In this document: in pieces, positions 60,403 to 64,000 of the stretch
Numbering within the stretch: position 1 is the stretch's first letter
Layout of the letters: each line of letters begins with the position of its first letter
NCBI GenBank assembly: GCA_020443425.1
Contig: JAGRIE010000005.1
Location: 137,145-201,144, forward strand
Direction of reading: 5' to 3'
DNA: 64,000 nucleotides
Source: Halioglobus sp.
GTDB taxonomy: Bacteria; Pseudomonadota; Gammaproteobacteria; Pseudomonadales; Halieaceae
Position numbers and translations under genes: made by a program
The notes under the pieces: generated by a model
What the model saw: the letters and a program-made list of their open reading frames with translations, nothing else
Databases searched by the model: none
What the model was told of the DNA's origin: nothing

Positions 60403-61209
60403 TCACGCGGGCTCAATGCTGACGGGGATACCGTTCAGTACCGTGCCGCCAGAGATCCTGTCGCTATCGGCGGGGTTGTCACTGGCCAGTATATTCGAGT
60501 TCACACCACCGCGCTGATTAGCAATCTGCCAACCACCCTGATGCCCCCAGCCATGGGGTAGCGCCACGTTACCGGCGCTGATCCGTTTTGATATACGCGC
60601 AGTAATGCACACCTCACCATAAGCCGAGCGAATCCATATTTCACCGTTATCCTCGATGCCGTAACGATCAGCATCCTCAGCACTGATTCTTGCATAGTGA
60701 TCCCACCGACTTTTCGCAAGGCTTTGCGCATTGTGCATCCAGGTGTTGTGAGTCAGAACTTCCCTTAAACTGTGGAGGCGCAAAGGGAACTTCGGCTGCT
60801 TGAAAAACTCATCAGCAAACAACTGCTCCATTTCAGTGACAAGTTCGGGTGGGGCCAGATTGATCAGCCCATCATCGTTCGCAACAAAGTCTTCGAGCAC
60901 GCCTGTCGGCATGTGCTCCACCAGTTCGACGCCATTCGGGTATTCATTCAACAACTTGTCATAGGTAAGGCCATCGGGGTTTTCACCAAATTGGTCGCCA
61001 AACTGGCTATTGCGAATAATGCCGTCGATCATGTCATGCGGTGTCACCGCAGCAGCCTCGCTCTTGCCGAGCCGATTGCACAATTCAAAATAGATTTCCC
61101 ACTCCTCCTTGACCGCTGCGGCAAACCCGCTTGATTTGACTAAAGATCCGACTCCTTTATCGAAACGGGTAACGCTCTTATTCAAGACGGTGAGCACTGT
61201 CCCAGCCAA
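60403..61209 (-). pseudogene. C-terminal fragment of a molybdopterin oxidoreductase (DMSO-reductase family)
   Basis: 268 codons in the same frame as amiB, starting two codons after its stop with only TTG as a start. The sequence matches the last third of bis-MGD enzymes: KEEWEIYFELCNRLG (end of the catalytic region), then the C-terminal molydopterin-binding barrel (WMHNAQSLAKSR, ISAEDADRYGIEDNGEIWIRS, GNVALPHGWGHQGGWQIANQRGGVNSNIL in part: VALPHGWGHQGG). The Fe-S and Mo-binding front half, normally several hundred residues, is missing, so it cannot be active. The first 25 codons do not look like the family and probably mark the breakpoint. Base composition is more AT-rich than the region to the left. 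Confidence 0.7.
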
Positions 61210-62271: not shown

Positions 62272-63318
62272 TTACGCTCCCGCCTCGGACTCTTTACCTT
62301 CTATCGGTAAATCACCCACCGGGCATTCAGCGACGCCAATAGTGTTACGCGTCATGGCTTCGACATCGGCCTGCGCTCTTTTGGCATCCATCACCCATGT
62401 GCGATAGAACTCGAACGGGCAATCCGCAACACCTTTATCCCCGTCGCCGGAGTTGTGTACGCCGGTATACCCGCGGTGAAGTAGTTTAAACAGATGGTTT
62501 TGCGACTGATCATTGGCGCGTGCATCACGAATCTGTGATACAGATAATTGCGCATACTGCACACCCATATCTTCTTCACCGCACTCACCGAGCGTACGGC
62601 CATCGAAGCCGATAATGGCCGAGTGACCAAAATAGGAATACACCCCGTCGAACCCGGTGGCGTTGGCAACGGCAACATAGGAATTGTTCGCCCACGCCAT
62701 GGTTTTAGCCATCATCACTTGCTGCTCCTTTGCCGGGTACATATAGCCCTGACATCGAACAATCAATTCCGCACCTTTCATTGCACAATCACGCCAAATT
62801 TCAGGATAATTACCGTCATCGCAGATTATCAGGCTTATTTTTAAGCCTTTTGGACCCTCCGATACATAAGTACGATCACCCGGATACCAGCCTTCGATCG
62901 GGCACCAGGGAATACATTTACGGTACTTCTGAACAATATCGCCTTCATTGCTAATTAGCACCAGCGTGTTATACGGAGCTTTGTTGGGATGGTCTTCATG
63001 GCGTTCTCCGGTCAGCGAAAAGATGCCCCAGGTATTGGCTTCTTTACAGGCGGCGCTGAAAATATCGGTTTCATCGCCGGGGATAGTCGCAGCGGTGGCC
63101 ATCATTTCATCTTTGTCGTACATGATGCCCATCGTGCTGTATTCCGGGAACACCACTAGATCCATGCCAGGTAAACCGATTTTCATTCCCATAATCATGT
63201 CGGCAATATTCTTCGCGTTCTCCAGTACTTCCTCACGCGTATGTAAGCGCGGCATTTTATAGTTGACGACGGCGACACCTACGGTGTCGTCACTGCTGGA
63301 TATATCTCCGTGTCGCAT
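62272..63318 (-). CDS. amiE: Aliphatic amidase
   Basis: 348 residues from ATG 63318 ([20 protein letters not shown]), very close to the known AmiE N-terminus and length. It hydrolyses short aliphatic amides such as acetamide and propionamide to ammonia and the acid. The nitrilase-family triad is intact: Glu in [10 protein letters not shown] (about residue 59), Lys in [10 protein letters not shown] (about 134) and Cys in [11 protein letters not shown] (about 166). GGAG lies 8 bases upstream. amiC, amiR and amiS, which sense amides and control the Pseudomonas operon, are absent from the window. AmiE is more AT-rich than the genes to the left, suggesting transfer. Confidence 0.96.
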
Positions 63319-63644
63319 AGTCAAGCTCCGGACTTGGGTCATGTTAAGAGTCGTCCCTTAGCATGTACCGAGCGGTTCCGGCCTTCTATACGCCCTTTTC
63401 TCTACCTGAATACGGTAAATGACGCATTCGAACGGGGAAATTACGGGTAACTTTCCGGATCATCTGCAATGTAGTCCATTAAGTGTACAGGCAGAGACGC
63501 CGTGACCAGCTGGCTGGAACCTAAAACCAGAATCAATCGGGAGCGGATGAAGGCTCATCCCCCGTTAACTGCGCAGAGCCTAATGTTGAAACAAAAAACG
63601 GCTGGCTCATGATGGGCCAACCGTTTGATAATTTTGAAGAAATT
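63319..63644. other. amiE leader and tRNA downstream region
   Basis: 326 bases without a gene. On the minus strand it holds the amiE ribosome site, an imperfect hairpin (GGAAAGTTAC/GTAATTTCC, about 63436-63455) that might act in leader control, and the tRNA terminator at 63596-63626. I found no clear -10/-35 pair or sigma-54 site. Confidence 0.5.
63596..63626 (-). terminator. Intrinsic terminator of tRNA-Arg
   Basis: On the minus strand the stem AAACGG(T)TGGC/GCCA(G)CCGTTT is followed by TTTTGTTT. It starts 19 bases beyond the CCA end of the tRNA fragment, as expected for the original tRNA transcript. Confidence 0.85.
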
Positions 63645-63691
63645 TGGCGCGCCTGGCACGATTCGAACGTGCGACCGCCTGGTTCGTAGCC
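63645..63691 (-). other. 3' fragment of tRNA-Arg(ACG): integration (att) site
   Basis: On the minus strand, 47 bases reproduce the tRNA from the anticodon loop to the encoded CCA: GGCTACGAACC (anticodon ACG in loop CTACGAA), AGGCGGTC, a perfect T-arm GCACG-TTCGAAT-CGTGC, acceptor strand CAGGCGC, G and CCA. The 5' half (acceptor, D-arm, left anticodon stem) is absent: the bases beyond are ATTGC and AT-rich DNA, and the anticodon stem cannot close. This is what remains when an element integrates into the 3' end of a tRNA gene. Confidence 0.85.
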
Positions 63692-63991
63692 GCAATGGTT
63701 ATATTTTAAAGCTATAAAATTCAATTACTTAGATATGGCCCGCCCTCAAACCACCCCGTATCGACCCGTATTCCACCGTAGAAACCCTACGTTTCGCACT
63801 GACCAAAAGGAACGGTTTCAGTCAGGGGTTCAAAGACTAAGTATCAGTCGGCCCACATGGTGAAACCGCTCTCCCCTCCCGGATATGTCGCCGCATGCGA
63901 CAGATGAACTAACCGACCAGAACCCGTATGATTCGCGTTAGTACATATGTAATTACATCGCAACCTGCCCTTACGTGATGTGGAGTGAATA
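63692..63991. mobile_element. Predicted start of an integrated element (left end), no gene seen
   Basis: About 300 bases right of the tRNA fragment contain no convincing gene. They show an AT-rich start (63700-63725), a CCGTATCGACCCGTATTCC near-repeat (63757-63775) and a short inverted repeat TGTCGC/GCGACA (63886-63902), all plausible att-flanking features. Because the tRNA points left, the element should extend rightwards beyond the window, with an intact tRNA-Arg at its far end. Confidence 0.5.
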
Positions 63992-64000
63992 ATGTTGAAA
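63992..64000 (+). CDS. Possible start of a gene cut by the window end
   Basis: ATGTTGAAA, preceded by TGTGGAGTG at normal spacing. Only three codons are visible, so nothing can be said about the product. Confidence 0.3.

Follow-up and report, generated by a model that had tools for sequence, protein, structure and literature searches.

The question raised by this locus is why the 3′ half of a tRNA-Arg(ACG) gene stands by itself close to the end of a contig, with other DNA in place of its 5′ half, and what lies on either side of it. The window analyzed here, i.e., the whole stretch of 64,000 nucleotides, corresponds to G000:C178:137145-201144 of a Halioglobus sp. genome. Its last base is the final base of contig C178 (201,144 bp), which stops 309 bp beyond the tRNA fragment, and the source assembly is a draft of 222 contigs with 3.97% contamination. 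An earlier note, made from the letters of the DNA alone, read the fragment as the left edge of one integrated island that leaves the window to the right. As the contig stops there, the rightward extension it proposed as a check has no sequence to draw on in this assembly. Two features carry the starting observation:

63645..63691, minus strand: 3′ fragment of tRNA-Arg(ACG), nt 31-77, a displaced attachment-site copy
63596..63626, minus strand: terminator-like hairpin (-17.6 kcal/mol, z -3.17), overlapping the 3′ end of the left element's truncated integrase gene

No tRNA was called by ARAGORN anywhere in the window. When the fragment was compared to the intact tRNA-Arg(acg) gene of the same genome, which is located on a different contig (C211:123528-123604), all 47 of 47 bases were identical (E 4.3e-18), which bears out the 47-base 3′ half described in the earlier note. 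The terminator it had placed beside the fragment is likewise supported by the hairpin, which was equaled in folding by 3 of 200 shuffled sequences, and the DNA past 63692 is indeed not the tRNA 5′ half. The tRNA-Arg search of the genome itself returned four matches, namely the intact gene, the window fragment, and two copies of 84% and 82% identity on C44 and C175; none of them is a lone 5′ half.

The right-hand side of the fragment could be assigned through another genome of the genus, G016 (contig accession JAUICG010000020.1):

63692..63991, no strand: distal (right) end of an integrated element, by identity to G016:C42 and G016:C19
63992..64000, plus strand: initial three codons of a MazE/AbrB-type antitoxin gene that is truncated at the end of the contig (100% to G016:C19)

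The DNA adjoining the scar matches G016:C42 over 166 bp at 99.4% identity, where it adjoins G016's own 47-nt scar, and the rest of the tail matches G016:C19:126-277 (152 bp, 100%). Due to the fact that these two pieces overlap by 9 bp and pass into inverted GTAAGCG-type ends, we read them as having been split by an insertion sequence, presumably an IS66-like one going by the motif. In G016, a nearly identical element end thus abuts the same 47-nt fragment with a far-side flank that differs from that of the window, in agreement with the claim that an integrated element lies to the right. The window fragment is, judging by these sequence matches, a displaced 3′ piece of the tRNA that marks the distal end of that element. 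The 309-bp tail as a whole has matches in 15 of 140 family genomes (its own included) and 5 of 28 genera, mainly over 63718-63794, the most widely shared stretch of the right element end; among the loci listed, the matches in relatives are followed less than about 30 bp further on by a tRNA piece, which is 46-48 nt long in some and 14-22 nt long in most.

One statement of the earlier note has to be corrected, i.e., that the DNA beyond 63692 starts without an obvious gene. The last nine bases of the window (ATG TTG AAA) are the start of the antitoxin gene as found in G016:C19, so that, by identity to G016, this DNA leads into a MazE-like antitoxin gene. The complete gene in G016:C19 (L157 269-493) encodes a 74 aa MazE-type protein (PF04014) and is followed by a gene for a 128-aa Fic/Doc protein (PF02661). 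The pairing of a MazE-type antitoxin with Fic/Doc near an element end (L157 269-876) is an observation in its own right; the usual partner of Doc is Phd. Beyond the Fic/Doc gene, G016:C19 holds an interrupted tRNA-Arg fragment (L157 949-1007) and then a transposase gene with the Pfam domains HTH_38 and rve, which we take to be IS30-like (our own naming).

The left-hand side of the scar contains the following features:

63583..63612, plus strand: last nine codons and stop of a tyrosine integrase (MLKQKTAGS*), by likeness to an ORF of G004 that adjoins the tRNA
63558..63580, minus strand: remnant of an ISL3-type terminus, "end A", with 0 mismatches to the pattern GGCTCTNNNNANTTAACGGGGGA
62272-63342: aliphatic amidase (NF009802), further left

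The flank at 63581-63644 agrees with the DNA that follows the intact tRNA at 62 of 64 positions in genome G001 and at 54 of 64 in G004. The G004 counterpart is the 3′ end of an ORF, which reads VMLKQKTAGA*; this ORF has 50% identity to the integrase of G015, and its scores against tyrosine-recombinase models are below their cut-offs. The distance from the integrase stop codon to the tRNA is 31 bp in G004 and 32 bp in the window, where the integrase remnant is directly bounded by the ISL3-type terminus starting at 63580. Because the left flank holds an integrase C-terminus cut by an ISL3-type terminus, the scar is placed between two elements. By these likenesses, the DNA to the left of the scar is not undisturbed chromosome but belongs to a second island, which is truncated and of which it forms the left end (element Z below). 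The displaced scar of the earlier note stands, but its picture of a single island with the fragment as its edge does not fit the left side. Its suggested check for a tyrosine recombinase near the ends found the integrase C-terminus in the left flank, but no island integrase in the genome's own assembly.

Further to the left, an AAA ATPase is encoded in addition to the amidase. The window also contains a 268-aa ORF (60403-61209) whose sole Pfam match is a molybdopterin dinucleotide-binding domain and which may be what is left of the C-terminus of a larger oxidoreductase. No second tRNA-Arg fragment that would bound Z was found in the window. An empty-site test using the amidase retrieved no close relative from 17 genomes of the same genus, with matches of 5e-12 or weaker except for one of 9.5e-14 in G013. 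In four genomes (G005, G012, G006, and G007), the tRNA is followed by a 549-aa ORF; its best match in the window's own genome (57%) is, however, located on C211 some 104 kb upstream of the tRNA, so that this comparison did not yield a clean empty site either.

The same kind of scar recurs widely. With a 77-bp tRNA query, matches were found in all 18 genus genomes, and nine of them (G000, G003, G004, G011, G013, G014, G015, G016, and G017) have 3′ copies that begin at nt 30-33 and are at least 98% identical. At the family level, the 46-nt 3′ part was found with at most 2 mismatches in 63 of 140 genomes, and 16 of these have two or three copies. Tandem arrangements are directly visible: G004 has an intact tRNA-Arg followed by two tandem scars with their elements and then by an inverted fragment of 91% identity (L113/L114; G004:C1:1420263-1448125), and G003 has two scars on a single contig.

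A complete island of 11,392 bp, scar included, is located between the intact tRNA and the fragment in G015 (L112 4073-15464). From the intact tRNA onward, it encodes a tyrosine integrase reading towards the tRNA, a second tyrosine recombinase, two thioesterases, an RND pump with its adaptor, a MarR regulator, a P450, and a ParD antitoxin, and it ends at the scar. Integrases beside the tRNA were found in both G015 and G016. The DNA of this island is present at 99.98-100% identity over stretches in G003, G004, G011, G013, and G014 (a 3.7-kb end piece in the last), and likewise in G078, which belongs to another genus, while G016 has a 4.3-kb stretch of it at 94.5% (all loci with this island: L112 4073-15464, L115, L113/L114, L123/L124, L126, L116, and L158). 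The TauD-family protein encoded upstream of the tRNA, when compared between G015 and eight relatives, has 77-85% identity; G011 (85%) is the only carrier of the near-identical island among those eight. The sequence after the scar differs among G015, G003, G004, G011, G013, G014, and G078, which is an argument against a single contaminating contig. That the 11.4-kb island occurs almost without change in several species, and in at least two genera, suggests recent traffic through the tRNA-Arg site.

The earlier note had expected an intact tRNA-Arg(ACG) at the other end of the element. Such a gene exists on C211, but on a contig separate from that of the window, and we infer rather than observe that the element ending at the window scar (element Y) lies between the two. 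From the intact tRNA, C211 continues for 19 kb and stops in a CRISPR array at its contig end. The DNA downstream of the tRNA starts with a direct repeat, TGCACCCA, and the region (L007 3605-20000, L010) encodes a phage-type replication initiator, a DnaB-like helicase, and a terminase small subunit as well as the type I-E genes cas3, cas8e, cas11e, cas7, cas6e, cas5e, cas1e, and cas2. The array has at least 11 repeats before it is cut by the contig end; when the first to seventh of its ten spacers were compared to the comparison loci, the matches listed were to the array itself only. A second att fragment was not detected in these 19 kb (no match longer than 9 nt). The genome's own assembly contains only two PF00589 matches, located on C158 and C11 in frames of 304 and 318 aa, and the G015 integrase has no match in it; the interior of the island lies outside the assembly.

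Whether the C211 end and the window end belong together was addressed through arm-type repeats. The sensitivity of this test is limited; the left end on C211 paired with the right end in the window scores 7 in it (null mean 8.4, maximum 11). A score of 17 was obtained for the pair of ends of the G004 element, and one of 16 for the end behind the scar of G016 paired with a G015-type right end, yet the G015 element's own two ends score only 10, equal to the null maximum, so the test can miss true pairs. Compared to eight left ends with this low-sensitivity test, the right end of the window scored 7-10, none clearly above the null; the best was that of G012 (10, null maximum 9). The lack of a shared arm-type repeat between the C211 end and the right end of the window makes stacked elements more likely than one island, and at least two elements stacked at tRNA-Arg(ACG) are favored.

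We consider it very probable that the scar as a whole marks the boundary between two elements at a tRNA-Arg(ACG) hotspot for successive tyrosine-recombinase islands. Starting from the observed fragment, both element ends, the recurrence, and the tandem arrays in relatives, the following sequence of events would account for the locus. Tyrosine-recombinase islands would integrate in succession at the tRNA-Arg(ACG) gene as a hotspot, each of them recombining inside the tRNA near the anticodon (the fragments begin at nt 30-33). Each newcomer would bring a 3′ half that restores the tRNA gene and would displace the previous 3′ half downstream, where it stays as a scar. To the right of the scar would then be the distal end of element Y, with a MazE-Fic/Doc toxin-antitoxin pair near that end, and to the left the proximal end of the older element Z, with its integrase gene cut to nine codons by the ISL3-type terminus. 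Y would sit between the window scar and the intact tRNA on C211. A third, later element X may be represented by the genes for phage-type replication and the type I-E CRISPR-Cas system of C211; the order of the integration events is likewise deduced.

The alternative that survives best, although we regard it as unlikely, is a single island that runs from the intact tRNA-Arg on C211, of which 19 kb would be known, to the window fragment, with native chromosome on the left. It fits an assembly in which tRNA-Arg(ACG) occurs once intact and once as an exact fragment, and in which both C211 and C178 break inside the candidate island. It is opposed by the integrase C-terminus in the left flank, by the tandem elements in relatives, and by the end-repeat score of 7 against a null mean of 8.4, where the G004 ends reach 17, yet those of G015 itself only 10. 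An artefact of assembly or binning, i.e., a chimeric contig end, would be conceivable for a junction 309 bp from the end of a contig in a draft of this fragmentation and contamination, but the near-same junction occurs in another genome (G016) and the left flank agrees with G001 at 62 of 64 positions, which makes this reading very improbable. That the locus is a split or intron-bearing tRNA whose halves are joined post-transcriptionally, as the 3′ part alone in the window might suggest, can be dismissed, given that the genome has a complete tRNA-Arg(ACG) and no lone 5′ half among its four matches and that 3′ copies of the same kind occur in 9 of 18 genus genomes. Stacked islands at the tRNA-Arg(ACG) gene remain our preferred reading.

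The terminus that cuts the integrase gene leads to a second question, i.e., how this element came to lie there. Homology of the end-A remnant extends over 63533-63587, with 84% identity to the end at C143 across 55 bp. The window has no match at E 1e-4 to four full copies of the element, so it holds the terminus only, without a transposase. A full copy in G011 (L125 6766-8070) is 1305 bp long and is located 51 bp downstream of a tRNA-Arg; its transposase (L125 6803-8008), the sole copy scanned, matches PF01610 (3.4e-58) and NF033550 (261 bits, cut-off 180). On these profile matches, the full copies in relatives are assigned to the ISL3 family. The terminus on the tRNA side, end A, fits GGCTCTNNNNANTTAACGGGGGA, and the opposite terminus, end B, is GGCTCTTCATCATTAACGGGGGA. 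An 8-bp target duplication is a feature of the ISL3 family; it was found in two of the four full copies (G011:C68 and C198, at tRNA-Phe and tRNA-Asp) and was absent at the C30 copy and the C293 copy, the other flank of which appears to be on C168.

When the terminus pattern was searched with at most 1 mismatch, 36 places were found in 6 of the 18 genus genomes (20 of end A, in 5 genomes, and 16 of end B), whereas a reversed control pattern gave none in the same genomes. The 20 end-A places represent 15 separate loci, as the motif is repeated back to back, or almost so, at five tRNAs, and at one more with a third, weaker copy. These repeats (L213 2433, 2483, and 2580; L218 2065 and 2138; L215 1642 and 1707; L217 1938 and 1974; L220 3562 and 3597) look like a duplicated end or nested insertions. 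All 15 loci, in 5 genomes, have end A in one orientation, with a tRNA 6-231 bp upstream. This upstream neighbor is an intact tRNA gene on the same strand at 13 of them, i.e., Met (four loci), Ser-gga (two), Pro (two), Ser-gct, Phe, Lys, Arg-cct, and Arg-acg, and an exact or a probable 3′ fragment at the other two: the exact one is the 47-nt fragment of the window, 64 bp from its end A, and the probable one is 139 bp from the end A of G013:C24 (score 14 to tRNA-Pro, maximum of 12 in 200 null comparisons). For end B, a tRNA was found in the outer 1,130-1,500 bp at none of 15 testable flanks (one of the 16 places is at a contig end without a flank). In Fisher's test, 15/15 against 0/15 corresponds to p 6e-9, with the qualification that full independence does not hold for loci of related genomes.

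Two full copies of G011 that were noticed through end B agree, with tRNA-Met 34 bp and tRNA-Asp 56 bp away, and on C211 the intact tRNA-Arg is followed after 111 bp by a more decayed end A, which stands outside the 15-locus count (end-A/ISL3 loci: L125 6766-8070, L213, L215-L221, L183, L196, L201, L008, and L009; viral, L233 and L234). In a collection of viral contigs, the end-A pattern was found in two contigs at the same locus, 93 bp downstream of tRNA-Ser(GGA) and in the same orientation; the insertion there resembles a miniature copy that has kept both termini but no body. The viral contigs yielded neither a confirmed relative of the ISL3 transposase nor the end-B sequence, and the plasmid relatives are all below 60% identity. 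We would like to note that copies were located by their terminus in draft genomes, so diverged copies are missed.

These positions make it likely that an ISL3-family transposon homes just downstream of many kinds of tRNA with the same end inward, and that the terminus in the window is the remnant of an insertion beside a then-intact tRNA-Arg; such homing would explain the position of the terminus in the window. No common motif was seen by eye in the stretches between tRNA and terminus, and the distances vary; the transposase or a partner would therefore more likely recognize the tRNA gene or its transcription than a fixed target sequence. Alternatively, the element may prefer terminators or strongly transcribed loci in general instead of homing to tRNA genes.

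Several known systems can be compared to this locus. In tandem accretion, integrative elements enter one att site in succession and several scars remain, which is also the case in G004 and G003. The tRNA scar in itself is a textbook event, and what the locus adds is the stacking of islands at one gene. In the Islander principle, a split tRNA is restored by island sequence and the displaced fragment marks the island's end (PMC4383910). The regenerated tRNA, the displaced 3′ fragment, and the tyrosine integrase beside the tRNA (complete in G015) are shared with islands of this kind; in contrast to them, the two ends in the window's genome are on separate contigs, no island integrase was found, and the elements seem stacked.

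The full transposon copies resemble ISL3 insertion sequences in having a transposase above the NCBIfam ISL3 cut-off with PF01610, a length of 1305 bp, and 8-bp duplications in two of four, but differ in that they sit just downstream of tRNA genes in one orientation. The literature matches listed, which are excerpts of open-licence texts, contain no description of tRNA homing by ISL3 or other insertion sequences; one of them, PMC3119063, covers tRNA-integrated prophages and in its excerpt describes no such ISL3 homing. What the terminus adds is an apparent case of homing to tRNA flanks, with fixed polarity, by a small DNA transposon of bacteria. If true, this 1.3-kb element would offer a simple model for studying how a safe site is found by a transposase when a gene, and not a sequence, defines that site, and caution would be needed where tRNA scars mark island boundaries, as these would themselves be transposon targets.

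The yeast Ty elements and TRE5-A of Dictyostelium are retrotransposons that home to the flanks of tRNA genes and are linked to eukaryotic genes of RNA polymerase III. The ISL3-type element would share with them the positional homing to tRNA gene flanks, but it is a bacterial DNA transposon and lies on the 3′ side of the tRNA.
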